Positions 1 to 16,876 of a stretch of DNA of 64,000 nucleotides are shown here, one piece after another (position 1 is the first letter of the stretch; the number at the start of each line of letters is the position of its first letter). Made by a program: the position numbers and the translations under genes. The DNA is from a virus. A model generated the notes under the pieces. That model did not search any database, was not told the origin of the DNA, and saw only the letters and a program-made list of their open reading frames with translations. The stretch lies in the IMG/VR virus record IMGVR_UViG_3300028030_000008, positions 1-64,000 of that record; one strand, written 5' to 3'.

Positions 1-371
1 GGTGTACCCTGTGTGAGCCACTCGATAATTCCAAATTGACCACCATTGTATGTTGGATGGTTGATTGCTATTTCGCTCGTTACCGTAACACTGTCGCCTA
101 TCGTATCGCTTTTGTGCCTGATGGCGTCGCTTTCCACAAGTGTCGCGTCAAGGCTTGTGCCATGAAGTCGCTCACTCGCCCTGATACTTGGTTGGTCAAA
201 GGCGTCTCTTGGTTCTACTTTTCCTTTTGGCGCAAACTTTCTGATACTACCAAGAAGGTGTTGCATTGAAACTTCGAGTGCGTCTTCCGTTAATCTTGCA
301 GCACGTTTTTTGTCAAGAGACTTTTTAATGTCATCAAAGAGTACAGGAAAGCGATTTATATAGTCGCCCAT
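1..371 (-). CDS. Phage tail-completion-like protein (partial, runs off left edge)
   Basis: Open frame of 123 codons from ATG at 371 to the window edge without a stop; the C-terminus is outside the window. A GGAG-type ribosome site precedes the ATG, which overlaps the end of the connector gene by 16 bases. The protein starts MGDYINRFPVLFDDIKKSL and carries a 'NHPTYNGGQFGIIEWLTQGT' stretch, like the HK97 gp10/tail-completion families. Its place directly after connector and capsid genes fits a head-tail joining or tail-terminator role. Function is inferred from order and weak resemblance. Confidence 0.65.
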   Translation of the reverse strand, partial: MGDYINRFPVLFDDIKKSLDKKRAARLTEDALEVSMQHLLGSIRKFAPKGKVEPRDAFDQPSIRASERLHGTSLDATLVESDAIRHKSDTIGDSVTVTSEIAINHPTYNGGQFGIIEWLTQGT

Positions 372-985
372 TCTCCAACTCCGGTATCGAAATCGCCAAG
401 ACTGTAAAGATAGTCCCAAGGTACATCAAGATACTCAAATACCTTTTGCATATTTTCGACTTTTTCAGTCATAGCCTTTAGGCTTTCGTGCTGCATTGGG
501 TTATAGTGGCCTTCCATATAGTCCGATGTTGGACCAGCGCGTCCTCTAAGTTGGCTTTCAGCTTCGGTGTCTGCATAGTAGCTGGCGCGAAATCTGGTCT
601 GGGAACGTCTACTTCTTGGGTCCCAGACCTGTAAAAGCTCGGCGTCGAACTCTTGTTTGAAAATGTTCTTTTGATCCCCTCTCCTGTTAGGATTTGACAC
701 TGTTGGGCCAGCAATCATTCCAGCCACACCGGTTACACACAACAGTTGAAGGTACTGAGTTTGACTAGCAGGCCAGTCCTCGTCATCTAAATCTTCAAAC
801 GGGATTACATAACCTGCTGATTGGAAGGTTCTCTCTATCTGCGCCGAAATCCAATTGATATACGTATCAACCTGTGTTTTACTTGGCGTAGTATGCCCAT
901 CCGCGAAGTCAGCACCACCCTTGAGTAAATGAGGGAACAGTAAACCGACTTGCGCGGACAGACAATAGGGAGACACTTGTGCCAT
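356..985 (-). CDS. Putative head-tail connector (gp6-like adaptor)
   Basis: 209 residues, mostly acidic and helical, no membrane segment. It lies directly downstream of the major capsid gene and overlaps the next gene, the usual place of the DNA-packaging adaptor that docks under the portal. No diagnostic motif is visible, so the role rests on position. It could instead be another neck protein. Confidence 0.6.
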   Translation of the reverse strand: MAQVSPYCLSAQVGLLFPHLLKGGADFADGHTTPSKTQVDTYINWISAQIERTFQSAGYVIPFEDLDDEDWPASQTQYLQLLCVTGVAGMIAGPTVSNPNRRGDQKNIFKQEFDAELLQVWDPRSRRSQTRFRASYYADTEAESQLRGRAGPTSDYMEGHYNPMQHESLKAMTEKVENMQKVFEYLDVPWDYLYSLGDFDTGVGEWATI

Positions 986-996
986 GTGGCGTCATC

Positions 997-2208
997 CTAA
1001 GCTAATACTTGCAAAACCATCCGGTTAGCGCCTTCGTCCGCGTCGTCGCCATTCGTAAAGACAGGCCACGCGATAACGTTTACACCGACTTCGCGGTTGT
1101 AGTTGGGCTTGGGGTCTTTGAACGTCCAGGGCATCTTGCCGGGCTTCCAGCTTTCGTCAGCTTGCTCGATTGGCGCAGTACCCATTCGTAGCCCAATGTC
1201 GCCGGGCGGCAGAATGATAATCTTGTTACGCGGCAGGAAGTGGACGCGGGTTTTGGTAGCCGCAGAACCGAGACTTTCGGTTCTGTAAGTCCAGAACGCA
1301 TCGTAGGTCATAAAGTTCCAACCGAGTTTGGTCTTGATGTAGTCTTTAACATCTACATCAGTCACAAAATTTCGAGCGCCGGTTTGCTCTTTGTTTGAGC
1401 CAAGAATGTACTCTTTGATGTCGTCGTTTTCGGCCATCAAGTCAAAGGTGCTTTGGGGAACAATAACCGTGCCGCCCCAGAAGTCAATCCCGTACTTTTC
1501 TGAACCAATCTGGCGCATCAATCTAAACTGACCAAGGATGTCTGCGCTGGGGTCTGACCAATACTTTCTTTGGTCAGCGGTAGCGGCAGAGCCAGCGTAA
1601 TTCACCAAACTGGCAACGTCCTGATTCATGTCAGATGGCATTGGGAAAGTCCAAGTGCCAGAGTATTCAGCGTTCCAGTGAGCCGGGGGGTTGCTAATTG
1701 CAGAGCCAGCGTCGTTTACCGGAGGCCAAACCAGAGAGCCAAGCAAGGCGTGGACGGTGAAGTATTCCAAAGTAACATCAACGTCGTCTTCACACAAGCT
1801 CATTTTGCGTTGAATTTCTTTGGCGATGGCCCGTTTGTTGCGCTTGCTAACAGAAGTGTTGCCAGCATTGAAAACTGCAAGCTCTCCGGCTTCTCGTATC
1901 TTTTGAACAATGTTTGGTTTAATGTTTCGAGCAGATTTTACATCCTGCATCGAGAGCATCATCGTAGAGAACAGCGGGTCGCCAACAGGGATTGCTTGCC
2001 CATCAGGGGCGTACAGGCCAGCCAGGTTGCTTTCGGCCTGTGTTTTTTCTAAAAGAACTTCCCTTTCGTAAAAGTTCTCAAACGGCGCAAGCTTTGGTTG
2101 AAGATATTTCTGTCGCCAACCTCGCTTGGAGTCGTCAGGGCGCTCATTTAGCACCTTATACAAGAACTTCGGAGTCAAGGGATTTAACGGGAATAAATCA
2201 GTAGCCAT
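997..2208 (-). CDS. Major capsid protein (lambda gpE-like)
   Basis: 403 residues, a usual length for HK97-fold capsid subunits of the gpE family. It follows the protease/scaffold and decoration genes in the lambda/Mu-type order. The start ATG has the site AAGGAGGATACAA just upstream, the strongest in this operon, as expected for the most abundant product. The middle region contains 'YGIDFWGGTVIVPQSTFDLM' and a late 'FLPRNKIIILPPGDIGLRMG' segment, typical of gpE-like capsid proteins in which late strands end in a short loop about residues 320-345. Family call is from pattern and order, not from a search. Confidence 0.78.
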   Translation of the reverse strand: MATDLFPLNPLTPKFLYKVLNERPDDSKRGWRQKYLQPKLAPFENFYEREVLLEKTQAESNLAGLYAPDGQAIPVGDPLFSTMMLSMQDVKSARNIKPNIVQKIREAGELAVFNAGNTSVSKRNKRAIAKEIQRKMSLCEDDVDVTLEYFTVHALLGSLVWPPVNDAGSAISNPPAHWNAEYSGTWTFPMPSDMNQDVASLVNYAGSAATADQRKYWSDPSADILGQFRLMRQIGSEKYGIDFWGGTVIVPQSTFDLMAENDDIKEYILGSNKEQTGARNFVTDVDVKDYIKTKLGWNFMTYDAFWTYRTESLGSAATKTRVHFLPRNKIIILPPGDIGLRMGTAPIEQADESWKPGKMPWTFKDPKPNYNREVGVNVIAWPVFTNGDDADEGANRMVLQVLA

Positions 2209-2219
2209 TTGTATCCTCC

Positions 2220-2618
2220 TTAAACCCAGTGAATGTCGGCCAGATGGCCCTTAATCGTAGACGAAACAGAACCCAAAGAGCCACCCAGGACATAGCAATT
2301 GCCTTCGATGATTTCGCCGTGATACACAGGCGTCATCCCGTAGTTTCCGTGCGTTACGTCAATAAAGTCATCAGCAAATACACCAACGGCGGTGTCAGAG
2401 CCAGTTCCATAAGCGGCAGAGGAGTTGTAGGGAACGAATTGACCAAGGTCGGTGTTCTTTGCAATAATCAAGCCGGGTCGTACTTCTTTGACACCGTTTG
2501 CGTCTTCGGGCCAGTAAGTTGCGGCAAACTCAAGCCCGATCAATTTCATGATGCCGGTTTGGTTGGCGATTACTTCCCGGATATTTTCACGCGCTTGCCA
2601 GTCTGTTTGATAAGGCAT
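2220..2618 (-). CDS. Putative head decoration protein (lambda gpD-like)
   Basis: 132 residues between scaffold/protease and capsid genes, the position of gpD in lambda-like heads. The sequence is rich in Gly, Val and Asp with short beta-prone stretches ('VRPGLIIAKNTDLGQFVPY'). Its start overlaps the stop of the upstream gene by one base (TAATG), suggesting translational coupling. It would trim the outside of the mature capsid at three-fold sites. Confidence 0.62.
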   Translation of the reverse strand: MPYQTDWQARENIREVIANQTGIMKLIGLEFAATYWPEDANGVKEVRPGLIIAKNTDLGQFVPYNSSAAYGTGSDTAVGVFADDFIDVTHGNYGMTPVYHGEIIEGNCYVLGGSLGSVSSTIKGHLADIHWV

Positions 2619-3718
2619 TATTTAACCTCCCAAAGAGCTTTGGCTGCTTCGTCGAGTTCATCGTCGCTCAGAGCGGTAGATTCTTCGCCGCCATGCTCTT
2701 TATCCATACGCTCGTCTTCGCCTGCGGTTTTGCCCTCAAAACCAATAGTGCGGTCAAGGTTCTGCGCTAGGCTAAGAAAAGCTCTAGTGTAATAACTGCG
2801 AACATCTTCAAGGCTGTAGTTGTCTTCGAGCTTGATTTCTCCATCTTCCCCTAACGGGGCTTCCAAGAGAACTTTTTCAATCGTCTCAAGGGTGACTGCT
2901 GGTAATATTTTACCGTCTTTCGGCAACTTAATATCAGCCATCAGTGCGCGGACATTGGCCTCGCGTTTAGCCTTTTTCAACGCAAGGTTGTCAGCTTCGA
3001 GAGCTTCAAGTCGAGCTTGTAAAGCCGCCGGAATTTCAGGCTCGGGTTCGGGAAGTTGAGCTTCCAGTGCCTTCACCTTATTTTCCAATTCATCAACCTT
3101 GCTTTCCAAACCCGCAATAGTTGACTCGGCCTCGTTGAGCTTTACATTATGCTCCTCAAGGGTAATGGTGTCAGTCATAGCATCCTCCTCTGTAGGATTT
3201 TCAAACATAGAGTTTCCATTTTCATTAACTTCTAAAACCACCTCTTGACCGTAAGAAGCGGACATTAGTCTATTTGAAGTGTAATTGGGGTGATATTCAA
3301 TCGAGGCTGCGGCGTAACCCAATAGAGCATCTTTCGCCGCTTTTGATACAACAGGGCCGTGACCAACCAGTAGCTTGTCGCCACCCACTTCCTCTTGTTG
3401 TATCCATCCGTTCTTGCTCTTCTCGAACCATACTAGCATGCCAAGTTCTGGTCGGTGACGAATATCAAGACCAACTTGCCCATCGTAGACCTCATTCTCC
3501 CAGTTCTTGAGAAATTCTTCGTACTCATCATCAAAAAACTTGAGAGTTTCACCCGTTCGCCCGTAGCGGTACTTACCCTGCACCATAAACGGGACACGGG
3601 CATATTCAACCCCATCCTTATCGTAAAATTCAATGGGGTGTTTTCTTAGGCGAACATTGGGGCGGTTGGTTGCGGCTACCCCTAGAATTGTTTTACCATT
3701 TCCTGTTTTGTTTGCCAT
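2618..3718 (-). CDS. Prohead protease/scaffold fusion (Mu gpI-like)
   Basis: 366 residues from ATG 3718. The N-terminal half (to about residue 180) resembles the Mu-type head protease region, with 'VGHGPVVSKAAKDALLGYAA' near the end. The middle (about 190-260) is a heptad-rich coiled coil ('LEEHNVKLNEAESTIAGLES'), followed by a Pro/Glu linker and an acidic C-terminus, as in scaffolds joined to a protease. It likely shapes and then matures the prohead. The frame is open 72 bases further upstream, but that stretch contains an intrinsic terminator, so I use ATG 3718. The ribosome site there is weak. Confidence 0.68.
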   Translation of the reverse strand: MANKTGNGKTILGVAATNRPNVRLRKHPIEFYDKDGVEYARVPFMVQGKYRYGRTGETLKFFDDEYEEFLKNWENEVYDGQVGLDIRHRPELGMLVWFEKSKNGWIQQEEVGGDKLLVGHGPVVSKAAKDALLGYAAASIEYHPNYTSNRLMSASYGQEVVLEVNENGNSMFENPTEEDAMTDTITLEEHNVKLNEAESTIAGLESKVDELENKVKALEAQLPEPEPEIPAALQARLEALEADNLALKKAKREANVRALMADIKLPKDGKILPAVTLETIEKVLLEAPLGEDGEIKLEDNYSLEDVRSYYTRAFLSLAQNLDRTIGFEGKTAGEDERMDKEHGGEESTALSDDELDEAAKALWEVK

Positions 3719-3741
3719 ATCTTCAAGCCCTTGTTTTTGGA

Positions 3742-3774
3742 CATAAAAAAAAGCAGCGGTCTTCGGACCGCTGC
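3742..3774 (-). terminator. Intrinsic terminator ending the omega-RNA-like transcript
   Basis: A perfect 9-bp stem with a tetraloop (GCAGCGGTC/GACCGCTGC, 3753-3774) is followed on the minus strand by eight U. It lies between the omega-RNA-like unit and the start of the head operon. It could end a short RNA or act as an attenuator that late genes must read through. Confidence 0.85.
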
Positions 3775-3910
3775 GGGTAAGAGTTATCAATTAGTGTCGT
3801 GACTGCTCCCCCGGCTAAAGTATGGGGGCTTCTACAGTGGTCTAACCACTGAGACTCACCAGTCCGCGAGTCAGAATGTTGATTACCGCGCTAAGGTCGC
3901 GGTCAATCTT
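3745..3910 (-). ncRNA. Solo omega-RNA-like transcript with own promoter and terminator
   Basis: Predicted RNA of about 165 nt from near 3910 to the U-tract at 3745. It folds into a chain of clean hairpins: ACCGCG/CGCGGT, GACTC/GAGTC, CAGTGGT/ACCACTG (7 bp), and CCCCC-atactttag-(CC)GGGGG. The last hairpin has the look of the 3' scaffold of IS200/IS605 TnpB guide RNAs (omega RNA). About 25-30 nt lie between that hairpin and the terminator, in the place of a guide. The 5' half still encodes a TnpB C-terminal fragment, but no TnpB body is present. The function as a guide RNA is inference. Confidence 0.6.
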
Positions 3911-3919
3911 GAGTCCATA
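3842..3919 (-). pseudogene. tnpB: tnpB remnant: C-terminal RuvC-III piece
   Basis: Reading leftward, 25 codons ending in TAG at 3844-3842 give 'GLKIDRDLSAVINILTRGL', which matches the RuvC-III end of TnpB (consensus D-R-D-x-N-A-A-x-N-I-L). All upstream TnpB sequence is missing; a promoter sits where it should be. The codons survive mainly because they overlap the guide-RNA scaffold. Confidence 0.72.
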
Positions 3920-3945
3920 ATATCATGAAATTATAAATATGTCAA
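3917..3945 (-). promoter_or_regulatory. Promoter of the omega-RNA-like unit
   Basis: On the minus strand TTGACA (3945-3940), a 17-base spacer and TATTAT (3922-3917) form a near-consensus sigma70 promoter. The start would fall near 3910. It is back to back with the rightward promoter at 3983-4011. Confidence 0.75.
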
Positions 3946-3982
3946 GTCAACCATCTTTGTTACAAAAAACCATAAGTGTTTT

Positions 3983-4011
3983 TTGCTAGAATATGACAAA
4001 CGTGCTATAAT
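3983..4011 (+). promoter_or_regulatory. Promoter for leaderless gene at 4018
   Basis: TTGCTA (3983-3988), 17-base spacer, TATAAT (4006-4011) with extended TGC just before the -10. Only six bases separate the -10 from the ATG at 4018, so the transcript should start at or next to the start codon. No Shine-Dalgarno site exists. Confidence 0.78.
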
Positions 4012-4017
4012 ACTACT

Positions 4018-4545
4018 ATGTCAAAGATAAACATACGCTATCCATCCACAGTTCAGCCCTCTCAGATTTGGGAGGGCGGAGGCAAGTCAATTGAAAAGCA
4101 CTACGTAATGGTGCTAAGAGTTGATGATGAGTACGCATATTGTTTCTCTTGTGGTAGCTTTCGAGAAACAAGAATTAAGCTATCCCGCTTTAATGCAAAG
4201 ACAACCGGATACTTCTTTGTTGCTAATCTTCTTGATTTAATCGAGAAGAGTAAGGGGTTTGTAACACCAATAGTTAATGAGAGAACATTCTTCCGCTTCC
4301 TTAGTGGCTTTCTATATCACAAGGATTACAGCGAAGGTAACGCGGCACAACTAACCCGTTGGTTGGATTATGAAATGACAAGACCAGAGAATGTTGATAG
4401 AAGTTACCCCAAGATACTGGATAGATACTTTACGGTGTACTTACCTTACGCAAAGAACTTGACAGCCAAAGCAAAGGATATTGACGAATTACTGTTTACA
4501 TTGAGCAGTAGAGGAGTATGGGATGAAAGAACTGGTTTGGTTTGA
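4018..4545 (+). CDS. Unknown protein, first gene of rightward block, leaderless
   Basis: 175 residues, not recognised. One 'YCFSCGSF' CxxC pair is visible near residue 40, without a second pair. Being the first gene after a strong promoter in front of an exonuclease and SSB suggests an early product. Its mRNA is predicted leaderless (promoter entry just upstream). The 3' end overlaps the exonuclease gene by 23 bases. Confidence 0.75.
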   Translation: MSKINIRYPSTVQPSQIWEGGGKSIEKHYVMVLRVDDEYAYCFSCGSFRETRIKLSRFNAKTTGYFFVANLLDLIEKSKGFVTPIVNERTFFRFLSGFLYHKDYSEGNAAQLTRWLDYEMTRPENVDRSYPKILDRYFTVYLPYAKNLTAKAKDIDELLFTLSSRGVWDERTGLV

Positions 4546-5146
4546 TCTCGAAACATCTGGTCTTGACATGCAAAGGCATCAAATTATTCAAATTGCAATG
4601 ATTGCTACCGACCACAACCTTGAAATTTTAGAGACAGAAGCTTTCAAGTTAGAGTTTAGCGTCAAAATTGCAAGCCCTGATGCTCTAAAGGTTAATGGGT
4701 ATAGTGAAGAAAAATGGGAAGACGCAATTGGGCAACTTGAGGGAGTAGAGCGCATCAGGAGCTTCATGGAAAAACATGCAACATGGCAAAAACAAGGCAG
4801 TACGCATAAGTTCGCTGAACTTGCCGGGCACAATGTTGCTCTGTTTGATGCTCCGTTTTTAAGCGCATACTTTAAGCGAGCCAAAACATTTCTACCAGCA
4901 ACGCACTGGACTGGCGGACAAGTTGACACCCTGCAAATGGCAAAGTCGTACTTTTTTGCAATGGGTATTCAGGATAGCTTGAAACTCGGAAGCCTTTGCA
5001 AGCGGTTTGGGATTAAACTCGAAAACGCTCACGACGCGCTGGCTGACGTGATGGCGACGATTGAACTAGCGAAAGTGTTAAAAAATCAGATTGGATGTCA
5101 AGACAAGCTGGTGAGAGAGGCAATTAAACAAGGGGGTGTAATTTGA
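4523..5146 (+). CDS. DnaQ-like 3'-5' exonuclease (DEDDh)
   Basis: 207 residues with the three exonuclease motifs: FDLETSGL (ExoI, about residue 7), GHNVALFDAPFL (ExoII, about 102) and HDALADV (ExoIII, about 168). This is the epsilon-type fold that removes mismatched 3' ends. As a stand-alone enzyme near SSB it may proofread for a polymerase outside the window or degrade host DNA. A second, divergent DnaQ-like gene lies at 25787. Confidence 0.88.
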   Translation: MKELVWFDLETSGLDMQRHQIIQIAMIATDHNLEILETEAFKLEFSVKIASPDALKVNGYSEEKWEDAIGQLEGVERIRSFMEKHATWQKQGSTHKFAELAGHNVALFDAPFLSAYFKRAKTFLPATHWTGGQVDTLQMAKSYFFAMGIQDSLKLGSLCKRFGIKLENAHDALADVMATIELAKVLKNQIGCQDKLVREAIKQGGVI

Positions 5147-5463
5147 ATACAATTACGCTTACAATTGACGTAATGGATGAATGGAGTTTAGATTTAGCCG
5201 TTGGTGCAATACCAAAAGAGAAGAAGGACGAGTTATATAAATTCGCAAAAACATTGAAGGACAATCAGCAAGTAGTAAAGGCATCCAGAGAGCTATATGA
5301 CAAGGTTGCGATTGTCACAGACGCTTACTTGTATGAGTTCGGTGGCGCAAACTATGTTGAAGTGTACTACGTAATGCTTGAGGTGCTAAAAGCTCTTGCG
5401 TCAAATGGGCAAATTATAGACACTGCAACGGCATCCAAGGAAAACCAAGAGGAGGTATCATGA
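5143..5463 (+). CDS. Unknown small acidic protein
   Basis: 106 residues, no recognised domain. A TTG start overlaps the exonuclease stop by 4 bases, so the two are likely translated together. The sequence is helical and charged. Confidence 0.65.
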   Translation: MNTITLTIDVMDEWSLDLAVGAIPKEKKDELYKFAKTLKDNQQVVKASRELYDKVAIVTDAYLYEFGGANYVEVYYVMLEVLKALASNGQIIDTATASKENQEEVS

Positions 5464-5801
5464 AAATCAAAGGCGTAGCTGCAACAACACTTCCGTTTAA
5501 TATTCACAGTGGACTATTTCAATTTTCCATAGAACAGTTGCAAATGTTGGCAAGAACCGCAGTTGGAGTCTCTGTAACAAGAGACTTTTTACCCGGAAGA
5601 TTGGGTGTGGTAAGCAAGGCATTTGTGGAAGATGGCAACTTGATTATCGAGGCTGATTTGGATAATGCTGAGTTGTTAGATGGGTGGCACATCGTTCCAT
5701 CCTACACCTCTCATGATTTTGCCACATTAGAAATGTCATTAACGCAAAGCCCCGCAGATAAGAGCTTGCCACAGGTAGAAAGATTGAACTTGGAGGAATG
5801 A
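5460..5801 (+). CDS. Unknown protein
   Basis: 113 residues beginning MKIKGVAATTLPFNIHSG. It overlaps its upstream neighbour by 4 bases (ATGA) and has a GGAGG-type site in that gene's tail. The pattern of alternating hydrophobic residues in 'GRLGVVSKAFVEDGNLIIEA' suggests a beta-rich fold. Not recognised. Confidence 0.7.
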   Translation: MKIKGVAATTLPFNIHSGLFQFSIEQLQMLARTAVGVSVTRDFLPGRLGVVSKAFVEDGNLIIEADLDNAELLDGWHIVPSYTSHDFATLEMSLTQSPADKSLPQVERLNLEE

Positions 5802-5995
5802 TGACTAAGCAGAGACACACTAGAAGCTGCAAAACAGACCCTATATTGTTTATCGAGAAATACTGTACTATTGACGGTAAGCCAATTGTACTGTCTGAAT
5901 TACAAAAAACCTTCTTGAAACAAGAAATCATAATTCCATCATCTGGCGACGCAGAGTTTAAATTGTTATCCTTGGAACAAAAGAGCGAGGCATAA
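5798..5995 (+). CDS. Unknown small protein, terminase N-terminus-like
   Basis: 65 residues (64 if the second ATG at 5801 is used, better spaced from GGAGG). The stretch 'DPILFIEKYCTIDGKPIVLS' resembles the opening of large terminase subunits, but no ATPase motif follows. It may be a small protein of its own or a leftover. Overlaps both neighbours. Confidence 0.6.
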   Translation: MMTKQRHTRSCKTDPILFIEKYCTIDGKPIVLSELQKTFLKQEIIIPSSGDAEFKLLSLEQKSEA

Positions 5996-6303
5996 TGACA
6001 TTTATTGCGCCAATTTTAAAACGAACGGTTATCACCGGCGACTGCATCGTTAAGGACGGTAGAGGAAAGGGTTTTAGGTGTACACACCCAGATGTAACAC
6101 ACTTGGGCATTGAAAGAAAACTTTCTCTTGATAAAGAAAGACCATATATAGCTATAGAACGCAGTCAGTGCAAGTTTTGCGATGCGTATATTGAAGAATT
6201 TTGGCTAACCGCGTATCCAGATTACGAAAGCGGAGTAGCCGCAATGGGTGTTGCAAATTCGGTAATTGCTGGTGTTGATAAACTCGATAAAAGGGAGGGA
6301 TAA
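5995..6303 (+). CDS. Unknown Cys-containing protein
   Basis: 102 residues; 'SQCKFCDAYIEEFW' gives one CxxC with further Cys earlier ('DCIVKD', 'FRCTHPDV'), possibly one zinc site. The start overlaps the previous stop by one base. Not recognised. Confidence 0.65.
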   Translation: MTFIAPILKRTVITGDCIVKDGRGKGFRCTHPDVTHLGIERKLSLDKERPYIAIERSQCKFCDAYIEEFWLTAYPDYESGVAAMGVANSVIAGVDKLDKREG

Positions 6304-6726
6304 GTGTGTCATCATAAATGGAAAGAGATTTTAGCGGAAGACTACATTGGTGGTCTGATTGGGTTAAAATGCGAGAAATGCGGAAAATTTCTCTCAGAAA
6401 CAGAACATGGGTTATCTAAACATGTAAACGAGCTGGAAGATGCAGTTGCGGATGCCGGAGTTGTGTTTCGCAAGATGCCAGTAGAGGATGGATTTGCTGT
6501 TGTTGTTCGCGGTGATTGGCACAAAAAACTCTCAAAAGTGCCCGGAAGTAAAACACAGTTTATGCCGTACATTGATAGAGTTATGTTGACCATCGGCGAC
6601 ACAAAGGATAGCGGAGCAATTGTCATTCCAGTAGTCAAGGATACGGAGTTTGAAGTTGTAGAGCTTGATGGGCACAACGAGAATGAATGGGATATTGAAA
6701 TCATATTTAACAAAAAGGAGAAATAA
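6304..6726 (+). CDS. Unknown protein with N-terminal zinc ribbon-like knuckle
   Basis: 140 residues from GTG 6304. The N-terminus 'MCHHKW...LKCEKCGKFL' could bind zinc through C/H and CxxC. The rest is beta-prone. It sits immediately before ssb and ends 3 bases into its leader, so it is probably co-translated with it. Confidence 0.65.
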   Translation: MCHHKWKEILAEDYIGGLIGLKCEKCGKFLSETEHGLSKHVNELEDAVADAGVVFRKMPVEDGFAVVVRGDWHKKLSKVPGSKTQFMPYIDRVMLTIGDTKDSGAIVIPVVKDTEFEVVELDGHNENEWDIEIIFNKKEK

Positions 6727-7140
6727 ATGTATCAAAAGCTTACAATCATAGGAAACTTGGGCAGAGATCCGGTAATGAAATTTATGCCAAACGGCGACGC
6801 TGTAACAACCTTTAGTGTAGCTACGAGTAATAAGTACACAACAAAGGATGGTAGCAAGGTCGAGGAAACAACTTGGTTTAGAGTTACGGCTTGGCGACGA
6901 CTTGCAGAGATATGCAACCAGTATTTATCGAAAGGTTCAAAGGTGTTTATTGAGGGTAGACTGACGCCGGACAAGGAAACCGGCAGCCCTAGAGTTTACG
7001 AGGCCAACGATGGAACGCACAGAGCGTCTTTTGAGGTCTTGGCTCTTGAGGTTAAATTTCTAAGTAGTAAGGGTGATGTTGCCGCGAAACCACAGCAAGC
7101 ACAAACCCAAGAAGCGCCAGAGGAACAGATACCGTTTTAG
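6727..7140 (+). CDS. ssb: Single-stranded DNA-binding protein
   Basis: 137 residues. The OB-fold region (1-112) shows the SSB hallmarks 'IIGNLGRDPVMKFMPNGD', 'TTWFRVTAW' and 'YLSKGSKVFIEGRL'. A Gln/Ala-rich linker leads to an acidic tail ending EEQIPF, the tip that recruits partner enzymes in bacterial SSB. It coats single-stranded DNA during replication and recombination. A GGAG site lies just upstream. Confidence 0.95.
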   Translation: MYQKLTIIGNLGRDPVMKFMPNGDAVTTFSVATSNKYTTKDGSKVEETTWFRVTAWRRLAEICNQYLSKGSKVFIEGRLTPDKETGSPRVYEANDGTHRASFEVLALEVKFLSSKGDVAAKPQQAQTQEAPEEQIPF

Positions 7141-7186
7141 GCTACTAATTTCTCACTAATATCTCGCAAATTAGTATGGAGAGACA

Positions 7187-7720
7187 ATGCGACAAGCAAC
7201 AACTGATGGAAGACGAATAGTTCAAGCCCCTTGTCCGCCAGATGGCTACCACTCAACAACAGGTGTTGTTAGCGTAACGCTTTCTGACGACGAGGAAGTT
7301 GAATGGATATATTCGCCAGATGGGAAAAGTGTTATTGGGTATACTATCAAGAAAAAGAATAACACATCTCTTGGTGCAATTGATGTGTTACCAAACGGTA
7401 AACAGGCAGTAGCGCCTACGTTTTACTCGTACAAGGACGCGAAACCACCATACGACATCATCCTTGGTTTTACCAAGGCAAAAGAGAAAAGTGAAATCGC
7501 CATCGGTGTTCACAGCCTGCTAAAATCCCTTAACAGGTCTACTATAAGCTACGATACCGCGAAAAGGGTTATTCAGAGGAGAATGAAAAGAGCGATACTA
7601 GAGTTAAAGCCATCGGCAACTGTACATGACATGGAGAGTGCGTTGAAAAATTCAGACAATTGGTATTACAAGGCGTTTGGTAAAGATGACAGGCATCAAA
7701 ACCGGGAGAGGACAAAATAA
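7187..7720 (+). CDS. Unknown protein
   Basis: 177 residues with a strong site (TATGGAGAGACA) before the ATG. The first half is beta-rich, the second half basic and helical ('KRVIQRRMKRAILELKPS'). It overlaps the next gene by one base. Not recognised. Confidence 0.7.
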   Translation: MRQATTDGRRIVQAPCPPDGYHSTTGVVSVTLSDDEEVEWIYSPDGKSVIGYTIKKKNNTSLGAIDVLPNGKQAVAPTFYSYKDAKPPYDIILGFTKAKEKSEIAIGVHSLLKSLNRSTISYDTAKRVIQRRMKRAILELKPSATVHDMESALKNSDNWYYKAFGKDDRHQNRERTK

Positions 7721-8289
7721 TGCTAAGACGTGATTTCTTAAAGCTAATGGGAGCTATAACGCTCGGTGGCCTTACATTCCAAACAATAAAGCTGTTTCCC
7801 GGCGATAATACCAACATTGATGTTGTATTACGATTGGGAACAGACGGACAAAATTCTTTATCAAAAGCCAATGATGTTGACAGTTATGTTGGATGCAAGA
7901 ATGGCAAATCCGTTGAGTTTGGTAAATTGAAGTCTATGTCTGTGGAATATTCCTCTGCGCTTAACATCCCTGATAATGTCACAGAGATATTCATTGAAGC
8001 ACATGTGAGCGTAATAAACAGCGACGCCTTGGATTTCTTGCAAGAAGGAGACCGCTTTGCTTGCAGCAAGCGCATCATCACACCCGATGTGCCAGTTGCA
8101 ATAACGACAATGAATCCGGCAGAGGGGTTGGATTTTGTTATTATCACACTGTACTCTTGTAGGGTTGAGTTTGATAAAGAGTCTTCTATTGTTAAGATTA
8201 GAACTAACGGAGATGGCGGTGAATTTGCCAGCTTGTATGCTTCGCCAATGCAAAGAGGTATTCCAATGAGTGCGTTGGTAACTGCTTAA
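7720..8289 (+). CDS. Putative exported protein with Tat-like signal
   Basis: 189 residues. The N-terminus MLRRDFLKLMGAITLGGLTF has the twin-arginine pattern R-R-x-F-L-K followed by a short hydrophobic stretch, so export of a folded protein by the host Tat system is predicted. The mature part is Asp/Ser rich and beta-prone, with no recognised domain. A Tat substrate is unusual in a phage. Confidence 0.7.
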   Translation: MLRRDFLKLMGAITLGGLTFQTIKLFPGDNTNIDVVLRLGTDGQNSLSKANDVDSYVGCKNGKSVEFGKLKSMSVEYSSALNIPDNVTEIFIEAHVSVINSDALDFLQEGDRFACSKRIITPDVPVAITTMNPAEGLDFVIITLYSCRVEFDKESSIVKIRTNGDGGEFASLYASPMQRGIPMSALVTA

Positions 8290-8306
8290 GATTAAGAGAG
8301 GGGTAA

Positions 8307-8720
8307 ATGGACAAAGGTAGATGTATTCAACACACGCATCGAGACCTCAAAGGAATGACTTGGTGCGGAAGAGAAATCGAACCGACAGGTTGGGTGTTTC
8401 AAAATATAGACCATGCTGTATACAACGAAGCCGTTGGTGGTGTTAAATGCTGCATAGAATGTAAAAAAGAAATAGACAAGATTTGGCATTACGGACACAC
8501 AAGAGATTTAGAATTGCAACTAAAAGAGAAAGGAATGGATTTGACAGACGAGCAAAAACGCGCAACTGAAAAATACAATCGTTTTCGGGAAGAAACATCA
8601 AAGCTGTACTGGGAGCAAGTACGTAGAATTAAAGCCGAAGACGAAGCGAGACGCAAGAGTAACTTAAAGAATGACAAAAAAGGGATTAGGGATGATACTA
8701 GGCGACAAACAAATAGCTGA
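8307..8720 (+). CDS. Unknown zinc-binding-like charged protein
   Basis: 137 residues. Cys/His residues are spread through the first 55 ('[20 protein letters not shown]', '[10 protein letters not shown]'), followed by a long charged helix to the C-terminus. GAGGGG lies upstream of the ATG. It overlaps the dcd gene. Function unknown. Confidence 0.68.
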
Positions 8721-9240
8721 TTTGTGTACATCAAAAAATGTAATCCATCCATTTGTATCGAGCCAAAAGAGTGACGGTGTTATCTCTTATGGCCTATCCT
8801 CTTACGGATATGATATTCGTGTGGCCGACGAGTTCAAAATATTCCACAACGTCAACTTTACCGTTGTTGACCCCAAGAACTTTGATGACCGCGCCTTTGT
8901 GGAATTTCAGGGCGAAACCTGCATCATTCCTCCCAACTCCTTTGCGTTGGCGCGTAGTGTTGAATATATCAAGATGCCACGCAATGTCACTGGTTTGGTT
9001 TTAGGTAAAAGCACTTATGCCAGATGTGGAATTGTGACTAATTTTACACCTCTTGAAGCAGGTTGGGAAGGTCATATCACTATCGAGATTAGCAACACTA
9101 CACCGTTGCCCGCGAAGATTTATGCAAACGAGGGAGTAGCTCAGGTTCTCTTTTTTGAAGGAGATGATTGTCTTGTGAGTTACGCTGACCGCAATGGTAA
9201 ATATCAAGAGCAACGTGGAATTACATTACCAAAGGTGTAA
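8692..9240 (+). CDS. dcd: dCTP deaminase
   Basis: 182 residues from ATG 8692 (an in-frame ATG at 8671 would add 7 residues). It shares the dUTPase/Dcd fold: '[10 protein letters not shown]' near the N-terminus, '[11 protein letters not shown]', '[16 protein letters not shown]' with the catalytic Glu, and '[12 protein letters not shown]'. It turns dCTP into dUTP, which the dUTPase at 24040 can then convert to dUMP for thymidylate synthesis. The pair suggests the phage manages its dTTP supply. Confidence 0.93.
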
Positions 9241-9242
9241 CT

Positions 9243-9452
9243 TTGAACCGCCCTGTAGAAGACTTGGTAATCGGTAGAGTAATGAGGGATTGGAGACTTG
9301 AGCAAGCTCTGGTGAAGATGAGTGGTGCAAGCTATCTTTACACGCTACTACTTGCGGCGGGTTGGAGTAGAAAAGATATTGTCTCTCACAGGGACGTTTC
9401 CAAGCAAAGTGTTGATGAGATAATTAGGAAAATAAAAAGTAGTTTCCAGTAG
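9243..9452 (+). CDS. Small helix-turn-helix-like protein
   Basis: 69 residues from a TTG start 3 bases after dcd. The C-terminal half ('AAGWSRKDIVSHRDVSKQSV') looks like a short helix-turn-helix. It may be a small regulator; not otherwise recognised. Confidence 0.55.
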   Translation: MNRPVEDLVIGRVMRDWRLEQALVKMSGASYLYTLLLAAGWSRKDIVSHRDVSKQSVDEIIRKIKSSFQ

Positions 9453-9467
9453 AGAGAATGGTGCGCT

Positions 9468-9884
9468 ATGGCAAAAGTTTACAACGTAGAGGTGCTAAAG
9501 GTCGAGCGATTTAGCGTTGAACTTTGTCGTCAAAATCCAAAAATACTCTACATCTTCGGGGACAATCTCGCGAAGATAGGTAAGGGTGGACAAGCTATAA
9601 TTCGTGACGAGCCAAATGCCTTCGGGGTTCCGACGAAGCGGTTGCCAAGTATGTCAAATGACGCTTTTTTTAGGGATAGAATAGACGAGATTGAGGCAGT
9701 TGAAAATGCGCTTTACGAACTTTCTTTGGAGCGACATTCACGCACAATAAACGCAATTGCGTTTCCAGAAGACGGACTCGGAACTGGCCTTGCCAGAATG
9801 AAAACTATGTCCCCAAAGCTGTTTAGAAAGATGAATGACCTGATAAGATTGTATTTTTTTCCTGATGGTGGGTGGGATTTCTAG
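9468..9884 (+). CDS. Conserved phage protein, DUF7831-like
   Basis: 138 residues. The motifs 'ILYIFGDNLAKIGKGGQAII', 'PNAFGVPTK' and 'FPEDGLGTGLARM' are those of a widespread small phage/bacterial protein related in pattern to macro-like domains. It may bind a nucleotide-derived ligand, but no function is established that I can cite with confidence. Confidence 0.75.
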   Translation: MAKVYNVEVLKVERFSVELCRQNPKILYIFGDNLAKIGKGGQAIIRDEPNAFGVPTKRLPSMSNDAFFRDRIDEIEAVENALYELSLERHSRTINAIAFPEDGLGTGLARMKTMSPKLFRKMNDLIRLYFFPDGGWDF

Positions 9885-10021
9885 GTTTATTTAGTAGTCT
9901 CGCTATTGCAAAAATATCCTTCTTAATCGAGGATACGTAAACTATTTTATGCAAAACCATATCAACAATAGTGAATTTTATGGGGGAGCAATATACTGTA
10001 GCGTAACGTTTCGGAGGTTCA

Positions 10022-10633
10022 ATGAGTGAGCTAGACTTTTTCAATGAACGAGACTTTTTCATTATTGGTAGTGGCCGTTTAGCATGTGAGTTTTTAGGGT
10101 ATCTCAAAGTTGATTTTAGACCAAACAGGTATATATACCTTGTTGGTAAGGCGCAAGAAAAAGGCTTTTTCGAGAAGCTTAGTGGTGTTGCGGTAGATGC
10201 GGTTATCGGCGTTGGCTCTCCTGCCTTACGGCAAGGTTTATCTGAGAAATTTCACGGCGTAAGGTGGGTTACATCTATTCATAATAGTGTGTATAATCAA
10301 GATGCCACTTGCGAGCATGGTGTTGTCGTTGCACCAAACTGTAGTTTGACTACAAATATCATACTTTTTCAGCATGTTTTTCTAAACCTGAACTGCACAG
10401 TCGGGCATGATACAAGAATTGGAGCTTATTCCGTTGTTAATCCCGGTGCGAACATCTCTGGTAATGTTACGATTGGGAAAAGAGTTTTGGTTGGTACAGG
10501 TGCTTGTATTCGAGATGGCGTTACAATCGGCGACGATGCAGTTATCGGGATGGGTGCGGTTGTTGTAAAGGATGTTCCTGCTGGTATGACAGTGGTGGGT
10601 AATCCGGCTACTGAAATCAAGCGCCGAACTTAG
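10022..10633 (+). CDS. Sugar O-acetyltransferase-like, NeuD/PglD family
   Basis: 203 residues. An N-terminal Rossmann-like half ('FFIIGSGRLACEFLGYL') is followed from about residue 105 by hexapeptide repeats ('IGAYSVVNPGANISGNVTIG', 'IGDDAVIGMGAVVVKDVPAG'), the left-handed beta-helix of acyltransferases that modify nucleotide sugars. Site CGGAGG precedes the ATG. The 3' end overlaps a glycosyltransferase on the other strand by 17 bases, which makes a shared glycan-modifying role plausible. Confidence 0.85.
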   Translation: MSELDFFNERDFFIIGSGRLACEFLGYLKVDFRPNRYIYLVGKAQEKGFFEKLSGVAVDAVIGVGSPALRQGLSEKFHGVRWVTSIHNSVYNQDATCEHGVVVAPNCSLTTNIILFQHVFLNLNCTVGHDTRIGAYSVVNPGANISGNVTIGKRVLVGTGACIRDGVTIGDDAVIGMGAVVVKDVPAGMTVVGNPATEIKRRT

Positions 10634-11348
10634 ACAAATGGTAATTGTAATCGTTTGGTGCGCTTGGTAGCGGATGGTAAACACTGACACTCGGATCGCA
10701 CCAAATCGAATACCCTAGTTTGGCGCACTCACGACATAGGCTAACAATTGCCTCATCTGTGTATCTCGCTCCTTGTTTTATTGCCGTGAATGGAAACATT
10801 ACTATACCGCCAGCCGAATAAATCTCAAACGGCTTGTTCTCTGTTATGTCACCCTTATTAGATGAGAAGTGACTCCCACCCAGTCTTCTAAACCCCCATA
10901 TATCATAAAATATTTCACCTGCAATAATTATCGGGGCGACAATATCTTTTTTCGTTGACAATAACCTCTCGATGATGTTTGGTGGATAGAGTAAATCGCT
11001 ATCAATAACGAGAACCCTGTCAGCCCAACTATCCCTTACGATACGTTCAAGTGCTGCGTTTGCTGTTTCTCCTAACGCAAGAAACCTGTCCAGATTAACA
11101 ACTGAACCGTACTTTGGTCTTCCGGTATCATGCTTGACAACCCTAAATCGTTTTTTATTCGCGGAAGCATTGGCAATGGAGTCTAGCTGCGCCAAAGTGT
11201 TATCCTTGCTATCCCCCTCGACCAGGTAAACCATAATCTCTTTGTATGCTAGAGATTTTATTCTGGCTAGATAATCGTCAATATACACTCCTTCGTTATC
11301 CCTAAATAAAGAGAGTATAGCTACCTTATCCACCAGTTGCCTCTGCAA
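10617..11348 (-). CDS. Glycosyltransferase, GT-A type with DxD
   Basis: 243 residues. 'LVEGDSKDNT' near residue 45 and 'DRVLVIDSDLLYPPNIIERL' near 110 carry the nucleotide-sugar-binding pattern (DxD). 'WGFRRLGGSHF' and 'YSAGGIVMFP' follow in the acceptor half, as in Anp1/GT2-like enzymes. It is the last gene of the late minus-strand operon, next to a second glycosyltransferase, suggesting glycan addition to virion proteins or host receptors. Confidence 0.82.
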   Translation of the reverse strand: MQRQLVDKVAILSLFRDNEGVYIDDYLARIKSLAYKEIMVYLVEGDSKDNTLAQLDSIANASANKKRFRVVKHDTGRPKYGSVVNLDRFLALGETANAALERIVRDSWADRVLVIDSDLLYPPNIIERLLSTKKDIVAPIIIAGEIFYDIWGFRRLGGSHFSSNKGDITENKPFEIYSAGGIVMFPFTAIKQGARYTDEAIVSLCRECAKLGYSIWCDPSVSVYHPLPSAPNDYNYHLSKFGA

Positions 11349-12156
11349 ATTTGTCCCAAAAAGGTTTCCAAGCGTTTTCTACTTTGAACTTTTCAAGATT
11401 TGGTGCAAAACCTTTTGACACTTCCTTATAGGGCGTATCCGCTATGCTTCGTAGTTGGTTTTCAATATTCCCCTTTGGATCAATAAAGATAGCAAAATCA
11501 TCAAACCAATGGCGATAGCACTCTAAATCAAATGTTATTGGAACTGCCCCGCAAGCAGCCCCCTCGATGATTGGTAATTCAAAACCCTCAACATGGCGTA
11601 ACCCAATTGTAAACTTGGCGTTATTGTACAGTATTGCCATATCTAAATCTGAAACATTATTAACGTTATGATACCTACGGCCAAGTCTCATGTTTGGGCC
11701 AACGTGCATAATGTCTCCATGGAAGGCGTTGTACACCGACTTGATTTCCTCTGCATTGTCACCATCAACATAACCTGTAACAACTGCGTCAAAGTGCCTG
11801 TCTGTCCTTCCCATTCGTCTAAATACAGGGTCAATGCCAAGTGGATGGCGCACAAACGGAGCAGAGTGAACAGGTAAATCGTAGTAACTGCTTACCATTA
11901 GCGATTGCCCCCATACGCTCTCCCACTCAAATGTTTCACTGCCCGCTGTGAGGTAACACAACTGAACTATCACCGTTGGGATTTGCTTAACCCAAACAGA
12001 GGCAGACTCAGAGTCAAACACCTGCCTGATTGCAATGTCCGCATCACCGATTTCATTTACAAACGAAATACTTCGTGGAGCGGTTTTGTGTATTTGCCCT
12101 CGTATCCTTCTCAGTGCATGTGTGGATAATCCATCTATCTCGCAATAAACTTTCAT
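11326..12156 (-). CDS. Glycosyltransferase, GT4-like
   Basis: 276 residues. The C-terminal donor-binding half has 'HVEGFELPIIEGAACGAVPI', the E-x7-E region of GT4 enzymes that grips the nucleotide sugar. The N-terminal half is short compared with bacterial GT4 proteins (about 350-400), as in many phage versions. It overlaps the next gene by 23 bases. Confidence 0.82.
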   Translation of the reverse strand: MKVYCEIDGLSTHALRRIRGQIHKTAPRSISFVNEIGDADIAIRQVFDSESASVWVKQIPTVIVQLCYLTAGSETFEWESVWGQSLMVSSYYDLPVHSAPFVRHPLGIDPVFRRMGRTDRHFDAVVTGYVDGDNAEEIKSVYNAFHGDIMHVGPNMRLGRRYHNVNNVSDLDMAILYNNAKFTIGLRHVEGFELPIIEGAACGAVPITFDLECYRHWFDDFAIFIDPKGNIENQLRSIADTPYKEVSKGFAPNLEKFKVENAWKPFWDKFAEATGG

Positions 12157-12473
12157 ATAGCTTCAAATACCCTCATTGTTTGCGGAATTGATTTTTCTAC
12201 TTTCGAGTCTGGATAAGTAGCAATAAATTGAACCTTGAAGTTACCGGCGTCCTTAACATCCGTCGTCCCTGGGGCCCAAGTGAAAATTCCAGTTGTATAC
12301 GGGGAAACCCCGGTTAGCGTACCGTCAATATCTCTCGCGGACGAAGCAACACCAATCTGTTCCATTCTTCCTGTAATTGCCGCATCAGTTAAATCAACCG
12401 CAGAACCATCTTCACGAGTCCAAGTTATTGTTTTCCCGAAATGCCTTGCGCCTTGTACTAAGTCTAAACTCAT
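12153..12473 (-). CDS. Baseplate/receptor-binding accessory domain, BppU-N-like
   Basis: 106 residues of a single beta-rich domain. The pattern 'TWTREDGSAVDLTDAAITGR' followed by 'GNFKVQFIATYPD' is typical of immunoglobulin-like N-domains of phage baseplate or fibre proteins. It overlaps the upstream gene by 4 bases. Confidence 0.6.
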   Translation of the reverse strand: MSLDLVQGARHFGKTITWTREDGSAVDLTDAAITGRMEQIGVASSARDIDGTLTGVSPYTTGIFTWAPGTTDVKDAGNFKVQFIATYPDSKVEKSIPQTMRVFEAI

Positions 12474-12742
12474 CGCGCCTCCAAAGTTGCCATCAGTGAT
12501 GGTGATGTAATACCAGCGTTTGATGCGGGTATAGAAATTTTACCATTCAATGCTATCGAAGTAGCCATAGCTACTATGTTTTTTGCCTTTGCTTTGCCGT
12601 CAAGTGACACGCCGAGAATATCTGCGGTTGACGAGAAGTCAACGGAATCCTTACTTGAACCAGAGAAAAATCCTCTTGTAAAAACACTAATGGCGCTCGA
12701 TAACCAGCCGCCAGATAAAATTCGCCTTACTTTGTCCATCAA
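12470..12742 (-). CDS. Unknown small structural-region protein
   Basis: 90 residues, Ser/Ala-rich, no recognised domain. Overlaps both neighbours by 4 bases in the tail-fibre gene run, so probably a small virion or assembly protein. Confidence 0.6.
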   Translation of the reverse strand: MMDKVRRILSGGWLSSAISVFTRGFFSGSSKDSVDFSSTADILGVSLDGKAKAKNIVAMATSIALNGKISIPASNAGITSPSLMATLEAR

Positions 12743-13890
12743 CTTTGCGTCCTTGTCGTACTGGTTAGTGTATGAGTGCGCTGTGCTGAACCATCAGGGC
12801 TATCGTAGGTTATTGATGTCGGGTTCGTAGCGTCATTGGCGATTGAGTTCCCAATTAGCACAGCCCACATATCTAGTAATGCTTGTTTAACAGTTTTGCC
12901 ACTTTCAAGCACCTCGCTCATTAAGTCGTCTACAACATCCTGAGATGTCGGGTTGTTGAGTGCGGCAATAAGACCGGGAACATCGTCTGCTCTCAATCCA
13001 TTTGTGTCGAGTAATATCGCCGCCAATTGTGTGGAGTTAGTGTCAATTTCACTTCTAATCTGAGCAGCGGTTGGGGGTGTCACCGTGTTAGCGCCATCCG
13101 TACCCCTCATGTCTGTGTTAGTTGTAGTCGTATCAACTAACGCTACATTTGCTACTGTATCCGTAGCTGGATCAAAATAATCTGCCGCCACTAGCGTTCT
13201 TGCATTAAATTCTGAAACAGTGGGAACATCAGCAATATCAGCGCTAACACTCGCCCCGGCAGGTGCGCCCAACCTAGCGTAACTATCCCCCGTTTGAGGA
13301 GTGTGTCCATTCAGATTGTCCAGATAACCCGCTCGCGCAGCCGTTAATCTAGCCAGTAGTGTATCAATATCAGATGGGATATTGACCGATGATAGTTCAT
13401 CCAGGTATCCCGCTCTAGCCGCTGTTAGCCTACTTTCTAATTCGTCAACGAAGTTATCTATTGTCACCAAGTCAGCAGCAATAGAAGCACCAGCGGGAGC
13501 GCCGAGTCGCGCATAGCTATCGCCAGTTTGGGCAGTATGCCCGCTTAACGAATTAACTTGCGTTAAATCGCCATCGCTCTCTATTCCCATATCAGAGAAA
13601 TTCGGTGGCACGGTATCATAAACACCGGGAACGCCAATCACCTGAACATCGGCAGTTGATGACGCCGGAGAAATTAAAATCTGTTCTCCATTTGTTTCAG
13701 CTTGTGTCAGATCGAAATAGTAAAACCCGTCTTCGAGTTCAGTTGGGTTAGTATCATCAACCGCATTGGCTGCGCCGCCATCTAATCTCAAGTTTGCGGT
13801 TATGTTGGCCGCATCCCCCGTTACCGGTGTATTGTCTGTTCTGTCAAACGCAAAAACAATCCATCTTTGCCCGCTAACATTTTTCTGCAT
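12739..13890 (-). CDS. Tail fibre-like protein with internal repeats
   Basis: 383 residues. An N-terminal beta domain (about 1-110) is followed by a repeated module: 'TGDSYARLGAPAGAS' occurs twice (near residues 125 and 210) and 'RLTAARAGYLD' twice between them. This segment type is common in tail-fibre or baseplate proteins of siphoviruses with long fibres. The C-terminal 60 residues include 'TYDSPDGSAQRTHTLTSTTR'. It probably belongs to the adsorption apparatus. Confidence 0.7.
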   Translation of the reverse strand: MQKNVSGQRWIVFAFDRTDNTPVTGDAANITANLRLDGGAANAVDDTNPTELEDGFYYFDLTQAETNGEQILISPASSTADVQVIGVPGVYDTVPPNFSDMGIESDGDLTQVNSLSGHTAQTGDSYARLGAPAGASIAADLVTIDNFVDELESRLTAARAGYLDELSSVNIPSDIDTLLARLTAARAGYLDNLNGHTPQTGDSYARLGAPAGASVSADIADVPTVSEFNARTLVAADYFDPATDTVANVALVDTTTTNTDMRGTDGANTVTPPTAAQIRSEIDTNSTQLAAILLDTNGLRADDVPGLIAALNNPTSQDVVDDLMSEVLESGKTVKQALLDMWAVLIGNSIANDATNPTSITYDSPDGSAQRTHTLTSTTRTQS

Positions 13891-14594
13891 TATGATACTC
13901 CTGCCAATAAGTATTCGTAATAGTATTGTGTTACAGTGTTACTGCTTACCTCTGTGTAATCAACTACCAATTTTGGGCGCCGGGAAGTTGTCGCTTCATC
14001 CGATTGCGCCCAGTGAATTTCACTGTTATTTGAGCCAATCAAAATTATTCCATTGTTGGTTGTCCCAAACCATCCCTCAACAACGGTTGTATCAAGGGAA
14101 ATTGCTGTTTCTGTTCCTTTGGCCGCTTTAGGATTAGCGGAATAAGAGCCAATTGCAGTGGCATCGTAATCAGTCCCGGGCGTTTTACATCCAGCACTAC
14201 CTGCCCACGATTCATTACAACCGCCTGCGCCATCAGACGCTTTGCAATTCCAGCAACACTCCCCGGCATCAGCAGCCGCTATGTTCTTATCGCCGGCAAC
14301 CCAATCCCCATTTGCATCAGAAACGTAATAAACATTCCCTGTGCATGGATCAGGAGCGGATTCTGGATCGAAATTGTGATACAGGTATAACGTCGCGGAA
14401 TTACACGTAGATCTTGCCGCAATCGCGGATAAATTGAACCGTAATAGAGATCGCTCTCTGTCCGATGTTTCCGGCCCGCGCGGTGCGAAATTTCCGTGTC
14501 CGCCGCCATTGCGCGTCCCATCCACCCAGATTTTAATTGTTGTATCATCAGCAGAATAAATATCTCCGCCGTATCCATCGGTGTATATTGGCAT
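13890..14594 (-). CDS. DNRLRE-like carbohydrate-binding structural protein
   Basis: 234 residues. It starts with 'ADDTTIKIWVDGTRNGG', then 'RSLLRFNLSAIA' and 'ATLYLYHNF', and ends 'PKLVVDYTE', the layout of the DNRLRE beta-sandwich found in secreted or surface proteins. A Cys-rich insert ('AGECCWNCKASDGAGGCNES') near residue 110 may be disulfide-bonded. A surface-binding role on the virion is likely. Confidence 0.72.
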   Translation of the reverse strand: MPIYTDGYGGDIYSADDTTIKIWVDGTRNGGGHGNFAPRGPETSDRERSLLRFNLSAIAARSTCNSATLYLYHNFDPESAPDPCTGNVYYVSDANGDWVAGDKNIAAADAGECCWNCKASDGAGGCNESWAGSAGCKTPGTDYDATAIGSYSANPKAAKGTETAISLDTTVVEGWFGTTNNGIILIGSNNSEIHWAQSDEATTSRRPKLVVDYTEVSSNTVTQYYYEYLLAGVS

Positions 14595-14629
14595 TTAAAC
14601 CTCTCGCTAGCCGTTTTGCTTTGTGTTTT

Positions 14630-16855: not shown

Positions 16856-16876
16856 ACTGTCCCCCGTAGTACATTT

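Follow-up and report, generated by a model that had tools for sequence, protein, structure and literature searches.

The window analysed here is a 64,000-nucleotide stretch (positions 1 to 64,000 of the 85.7-kb phage record IMGVR_UViG_3300028030_000008), and the locus of interest occupies positions 3745-3945. The preliminary description of this DNA, made from the sequence alone, named no strand; all parts of the omega-RNA locus lie on the minus strand and are read from 3945 to 3745, in the 5' to 3' order promoter, remnant of the 3' end of tnpB, omega-RNA scaffold, 24 nucleotides in guide position, terminator and capsid operon (Table 1). The promoter consists of TTGACA (3945-3940) and TATTAT (3922-3917) separated by 17 nt, abuts the scaffold, and was the top-ranked sigma70-type site at positions 1-20000 in the promoter scan, in agreement with the near-consensus promoter originally pointed out; transcription from it is predicted to start at about 3910. 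The terminator, previously described as a 9-bp hairpin followed by eight U, was likewise recovered (stem, 3774-3753) as the only canonical terminator in 3500-4300 and the strongest in 1-40000. Its U-tract lies 26 nt from the ATG of the capsid operon (3718), which includes a major capsid gene of the Phage_cap_E family, so the position just upstream of the capsid operon was also correctly assigned. Note that the presence of a promoter and a terminator by itself is weak evidence, because both are expected anyway in an intergenic region between divergent operons. The predicted fold of 3912-3745 was more stable than expected from its composition (z = -4.8; none of 200 shuffled sequences was equally stable).

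Table 1. Features of the omega-RNA locus and of the adjacent capsid operon (window coordinates).
Feature	Position	Strand	Evidence or remark
Promoter, TTGACA-17-TATTAT, TG-extended -10	3917-3945	-	11 of 12 consensus positions
C-terminal tnpB remnant, 24 codons plus stop, GLKIDRDLSAVINILTRGLVSLSG	3842-3916	-	tblastn and alignment of C-termini
HP1, 5' hairpin peculiar to the window copy	3881-3908	-	-12.4 kcal/mol
omega-RNA scaffold region	3799-3910	-	full covariance-model match
HP2, omega-RNA core; its loop, GACUG, supplies one strand of the pseudoknot	3853-3872	-	6 of 6 pairs; double changes in the family
HP3, omega-RNA core, CAGTGGTTAGACCACTG	3835-3851	-	7 bp in the window copy; conserved basal 3 bp covary
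HP4, right-end palindrome, CCCCC-AUACUUUAGCC-GGGGG	3808-3828	-	5 pairs; apical half broken
Pseudoknot, 3' half, CAGUC	3801-3805	-	pairs with GACUG at 3864-3860, 5 of 5
Right end of the element, ...GTCAC	3799-3803	-	identical terminus in relatives at other insertion sites
24 nt in guide position, GACACTAATTGATAACTCTTACCC	3775-3798	-	position only
Intrinsic terminator, 9-bp stem and U8	3745-3774	-	terminator scan
Capsid operon gene 1, 366 aa, weakly scaffold-like coiled coil	2618-3718	-	Phage_scaffold match below cut-off
Major capsid protein, Phage_cap_E	997-2208	-	Pfam PF03864, 1.2e-14

The tnpB gene had been described as reduced to its last 25 codons. A C-terminal remnant is indeed present; it comprises 24 codons plus the stop, and an in-frame stop precedes it. 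No open tnpB lies upstream. The best phage and plasmid matches of the remnant in the tblastn search were mostly annotated C-termini of TnpB or transposase (50-79% identity), with E-values that were individually weak because the remnant is short. It was alignable with 56 phage TnpB C-termini, all of which carry Asn in the DRDxNA motif; Ser occupies this position in the window remnant, and the coding constraint on the remnant is gone. The search pattern designed for the window copy's own remnant gave no match in viral contigs. Ten loci were retrieved from IMG/VR by scanning with the pattern of the right-end motif, and a tnpB C-terminus was located directly upstream of the motif in six of them (L006, L007, L008/L012, L009, L013 and L014). 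The elements at these six loci terminate in GTCAC, and their flanks are unrelated and diverge immediately after it. A second scan, of genome_contigs with a stricter pattern, yielded one match only, the intact tnpB locus L016 in an Armatimonadetes bin. At the window locus, HP4 (3828-3808) is followed by GCAGTCAC, which terminates at 3799; the scaffold overlaps the last tnpB codons and ends at the GTCAC right end, as an omega-RNA of this kind does.

With the alignment of the TnpB proteins from five of the six loci (A2), 80 phage loci encoding that TnpB family were retrieved. The structural alignment (A3) contained 57 sequences, i.e., 56 TnpB-linked 3' ends and the window copy. The covariance model (R2) was built from 47 intact phage TnpB loci with the window sequence left out, and its sole match in the 85.7-kb phage record was at exactly 3799-3910, over all of the model (positions 1-107 of 107), with 71.2 bits (E = 4.6e-12). 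Because a model built without the window copy matches 3799-3910 in full length, we regard it as settled, from sequence comparison, that this region is the omega-RNA end of an IS605-type element, and the proposal of a TnpB-type scaffold without its nuclease was borne out. The structure composed of HP2, HP3, HP4 and the pseudoknot was paired in 96.2% of the cells of A3 (67.3% in shuffled alignments), its covariation score was 0.75 (0.20 in shuffled alignments), and pairing fell below 50% when the structure was slid by one column. Double changes were found at all six pairs of the HP2 helix across the 57 sequences. The pseudoknot joins the loop of HP2 to the stretch leading into the terminal CAC, with C3801 in its final pair; it was paired in 99.6% of the family cells, with compensatory changes that include GGCUA:UAGUC, GAAUG:CAUUC, GAUUA:UAAUC, GACAA:UUGUC and GACGA:UCGUC. 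In the structure of ISDra2 TnpB, the loop of a 5' stem is paired with the final bases ahead of the guide [PMC10097598], and the pseudoknot of the present family corresponds to that one. A comparison with Rfam omega-RNA models had been suggested as a check; over the window, nothing scored above threshold except a tRNA, and HEARO and others were at chance level. This negative result is uninformative and is not valid as a refutation, because intact TnpB relatives of the same family also give no Rfam omega-RNA match. The HEARO (IscB) omega-RNA (RF02033) was rejected with 15.9 bits against a gathering score of 83.

As for the state of preservation, the conserved pairs of the window copy were all retained in HP2 (6 of 6), HP3 (3 of 3), basal HP4 (4 of 4) and the GACUG:CAGUC pseudoknot (5 of 5). 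The hairpins initially listed as four clean ones lie in a stable fold, but the apical half of the CCCCC/GGGGG hairpin is unpaired and HP1 (3908-3881) lies outside the conserved scaffold. With five pairs and an 11-nt apical loop, HP4 has the fewest pairs and the largest loop of the 57 sequences (6-10 pairs in the 56 TnpB-linked copies), and the omega-RNA feature of a stem 4 intact up to a UUUA loop is missing from the window copy. Two G-to-A changes would explain the broken stem, because the relative L056 reads CCCCCGTGCTTTAGCCGGGGG at this position. HP1, measured over the first 38 nt, is the strongest of the 57 (-12.4 kcal/mol; mean of the relatives -4.1, s.d. 2.7). The window RNA thus shows one clear sign of decay, in stem 4, and one change that could be read as the gain of a stable 5' end.

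The only TnpB of the phage record is intact (409 aa; Pfam TNB domain, 5e-22) and is encoded at 63291-64520, of which the window holds 63291-64000. It is 28% identical to the TnpB family of the omega-RNA over the C-terminal half and has a different 3' end. It was rejected as the partner on account of this mismatched 3' end and because the omega-RNA model found the solo copy only, so that no cognate tnpB for the omega-RNA at 3799-3910 exists in the 85.7-kb record, which may be incomplete. Nucleotides do lie in guide position, as stated earlier, but number 24 rather than 25-30. The search of the guide against host and phage genomes that had been recommended gave no match: none elsewhere in the phage itself with up to three mismatches, none of 22-mers in genome_contigs (84,980 genomes), and none of 18-mers in viral contigs. 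Relatives of the phage were sought through the capsid or scaffold-like protein in IMG/VR and through the capsid protein in GenBank phages, in each case with none detected; the terminase search gave one 4.7-kb fragment (68%) that stops short of the locus, the remainder being at 25-28%. No relative covering the capsid-leader locus, on which the conservation of the scaffold and guide could be judged, was found in these collections.

Copies of the omega-RNA lacking tnpB recur in other phages. When the 80 phage records were searched with R2 and the additional matches were inspected, 18 more copies that lack a full-length tnpB came to light, spread over about 13 records; this count takes in L185 and L186, for both of which the upstream frame was unchecked. 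The pseudoknot was fully paired (5 of 5) in 14 of the 18. In one phage, two near-identical copies with different flanks (L160 and L161) consist of a left-end hairpin, TTGACT-17-TATATT, the omega-RNA core and the right end, and a tnpB of the family (L027) is present on the same contig. In another phage, the mobile TnpB-less elements L172, L173 and L185 keep the covarying HP2, HP3, HP4 and pseudoknot. Such mobile elements, which often share the contig with a tnpB of the same family, could be using TnpB in trans. In L163, the left end and promoter of the tnpB of L043 are joined to the omega-RNA at a 10-bp direct repeat, CTTAATGCGT, which is found once at the tnpB start codon and again in the Leu-Asn-Ala codons with which the aligned omega-RNA region begins. 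The deletion amounts to 1,012 bp and leaves TTGATT-17-TATACT 26 nt before HP2; L163 and its intact parent are on the same 191-kb phage contig. Since the tnpB genes of this family often have such a sigma70-type promoter just before the start codon, and since L163 shows the corresponding deletion, a promoter sitting exactly where the tnpB body was is an expected outcome of a core deletion. L163 and L160/L161 resemble the window copy in lacking tnpB and in having a sigma70-type promoter ahead of this omega-RNA core, at a distance of 22-26 nt; unlike it, they keep the left end, a family tnpB on the contig and an intact stem 4, and have no terminator right after the guide. A solo remnant of a different kind was observed at L022 (2213-2321), where the omega-RNA is joined in frame to the end of a phage ORF of unrelated origin; this remnant lies immediately to the left of a closely related TnpB element that is intact.

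By origin, the window locus belongs with the core-deleted IS605-type elements, represented by the PATEs and terminal-only elements of Haloquadratum, which are formed by repeat-mediated deletion [PMC3119063]. It shares with PATEs the protein-free state, with no transposase or nuclease gene, a palindrome close to the right end, and the core deletion; it differs in being single-copy (one match in 85.7 kb), in having no recognisable palindrome at the left end (none in 3911-4017), and in retaining a nearly complete omega-RNA core with a promoter. A promoter joined to an intact omega-RNA core after the loss of tnpB is the variant feature relative to the known core-deleted elements; no description of it was found in the literature searched, the coverage of which was partial. 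If the window RNA functions at all, it would do so like the omega-RNA (reRNA) of ISDra2 TnpB [PMC8612924, PMC10097598], which it resembles in combining the tnpB 3' end with the right end, in the right-end stem, in taking the guide from flanking DNA, and in the pseudoknot between a hairpin loop and the bases immediately ahead of the guide. The ISDra2 RNA is different in that the window locus has no tnpB, has its own abutting promoter and terminator, and has a broken apical stem 4; the core of the window copy is also shorter (74 nt from HP2 to the end, compared with 116 nt), and 24 nt rather than about 16 nt precede the terminator. The TldR-gRNA prophage cassettes are similar as phage-borne TnpB-type guide RNAs outside a normal transposon, and in them a nuclease-dead TnpB-like protein is kept beside the guide RNA [PMC13418256]; a TldR system was rejected for the window locus, as no TnpB-like gene is near it and the only one is at 63291-64520.

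The explanation that we somewhat prefer to all others taken together is that an IS605-type element lost its core by deletion and became an immobile, partly decayed remnant, which continues to encode an omega-RNA-like transcript of about 166 nt in the leader of the capsid operon. An IS200/IS605-type element carrying a tnpB of the 80-loci family would have been inserted upstream of the capsid operon; a core deletion would then have eliminated tnpB almost entirely, and the left end would have become unrecognisable. The DNA left behind would comprise the tnpB 3' end, which encodes the scaffold, together with the right end and the adjoining DNA in guide position, flanked today by a sigma70-type promoter on one side and a terminator on the other. 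The RNA, if transcribed, would be about 166 nt long, fold as an omega-RNA core (HP2, HP3, basal HP4 and pseudoknot), carry 24 nt in guide position and end at the terminator. Membership in the omega-RNA family, the covarying structure, the loss of tnpB and the promoter and terminator sequences are shown; we infer the transcription, the order of events and the present status, that of a relic which is immobile and partly decayed and not that of a working guide. In favour of the explanation, the independent covariance model matches the exact interval, the structure covaries, the scaffold lies at the tnpB 3' end before the family's GTCAC terminus, TnpB-less copies recur, the deletion in L163 provides a precedent, apical stem 4 is lost, and so is the Asn of DRDxNA. 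On the other side, all 14 conserved pairs of HP2, HP3 and the pseudoknot are perfect, which is more than a neutral relic, whatever its age, need keep; the HP1 that is strongest of 57 was apparently gained after the loss of tnpB, as a stable small RNA might show; a terminator 24 nt past the right end is atypical among the other TnpB-less copies examined; and no deletion junction is visible at the locus. No left end was recognised in 3911-4017, but a GC-rich hairpin is also missing from some left ends of the family (L043). The promoter may stem from the phage or be inherited from tnpB; the best matches to the upstream DNA were tnpB promoters (L059 and L035), a similarity that is suggestive only, as 6 of 100 shuffled sequences matched as well (not significant). 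A plain mobile element was rejected for this copy, which is single and has no recognised left end.

The preliminary description had suggested that the guide RNA was kept by selection and separated from its nuclease. The evidence does not support this suggestion, given the lack of relatives covering the locus, the lost apex of stem 4, the lack of a matching TnpB in the record and the lack of a guide target in the sequences searched; moreover, for the coincidence of promoter and omega-RNA there is an ordinary precedent, the repeat-mediated core deletion of IS605-type elements that L163 shows. A related reading is that of a working omega-RNA in trans, which would be loaded into the TnpB of the host or of a co-infecting element and cleave guide-matching DNA next to a TAM, possible targets being, for example, competing phages or copies with an uninterrupted insertion site. 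The intact scaffold core and pseudoknot and the dedicated promoter and terminator speak for it, as do the mobile TnpB-less elements elsewhere, which keep the same core with fully paired pseudoknots, often with the family tnpB on the contig. In addition, copies without the insertion can be the target of a drive exerted by TnpB and its omega-RNA [PMC11870625], and a broken tldR locus has been suggested as a supplier of gRNA in trans [PMC13418256]. We nevertheless consider a working trans-acting guide unlikely: in ISDra2, the WED domain binds the apical portion of stem 4 [PMC10097598], which is broken in the window copy, the sole TnpB of the record does not fit, and the guide searches in the phage itself, genome_contigs and viral contigs returned no target. 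A wider version of this reading, which appears improbable to us, is that TnpB-less omega-RNA units driven by a promoter form a recurrent class of non-autonomous elements in phages, which would rely on TnpB supplied in trans and record a new guide with every insertion. The window locus would then be one such unit, fixed next to the capsid operon and closed off by a terminator, whose guide aims a host or rival TnpB at phages that lack the insertion. The idea of an antisense or host-targeting small RNA unrelated to TnpB, with the old scaffold as merely a stable body, is highly improbable; the strong 5' hairpin and the terminator are as in small RNAs, but the guide-position DNA has no complementarity to the phage with up to three mismatches and no identity of 22 nt in the 84,980 genomes (a search that covered lengths of 22 nt and above).

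A regulated leader would account for the promoter and terminator in a different way. In phage lambda, the promoter pR', the short 6S RNA and the terminator tR' stand directly upstream of the late operon, and at the window locus the same succession of three elements immediately precedes a late operon. On this model, to which we assign a low though appreciable probability, the promoter at 3945 would be that of the capsid operon, most transcripts would end at 3745, a phage factor would permit read-through, and the omega-RNA scaffold would be a passenger in the leader, or its hairpins would have been recruited. The capsid genes run leftward from 3718, with the terminator between the promoter and the ATG. 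Farther upstream, the leftward terminase operon (21925 to 10617) runs head-on into the rightward cluster (4018 to 10633), which leaves the promoter at 3945 as the only one visible in the sequence for the capsid operon, and because capsid transcripts from it must pass the terminator, the leader is a serious alternative for these two features. A perfect palindrome, CAAAAAAC-7-GTTTTTTG, lies at 3963-3985 between the divergent promoters. Against the model, unlike the lambda case, the leader is a transposon remnant and no antiterminator or recognition site was identified at the window locus; the late genes may also use a promoter type outside the coverage of the scan, and there is no relative that shows the arrangement without the omega-RNA. 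The palindrome itself is a possible operator.

The guide RNAs of TnpB are regarded as products of the tnpB message itself. By welding a tnpB promoter onto the omega-RNA, core deletions would place nuclease and guide in separate genes, as in CRISPR-Cas12; such welding is seen in at least one other phage (L163) and may have taken place at the window locus. As the mobile copies L160 and L161 keep a covarying omega-RNA core after the loss of tnpB, the use of TnpB in trans is directly testable with them.

As a minor observation, a TATAAT box lies about 6 nt before the ATG both of the rightward gene at 4018 (window 3983-4018) and of the phage's own tnpB (about 64520), which suggests that these two genes are expressed from leaderless transcripts.
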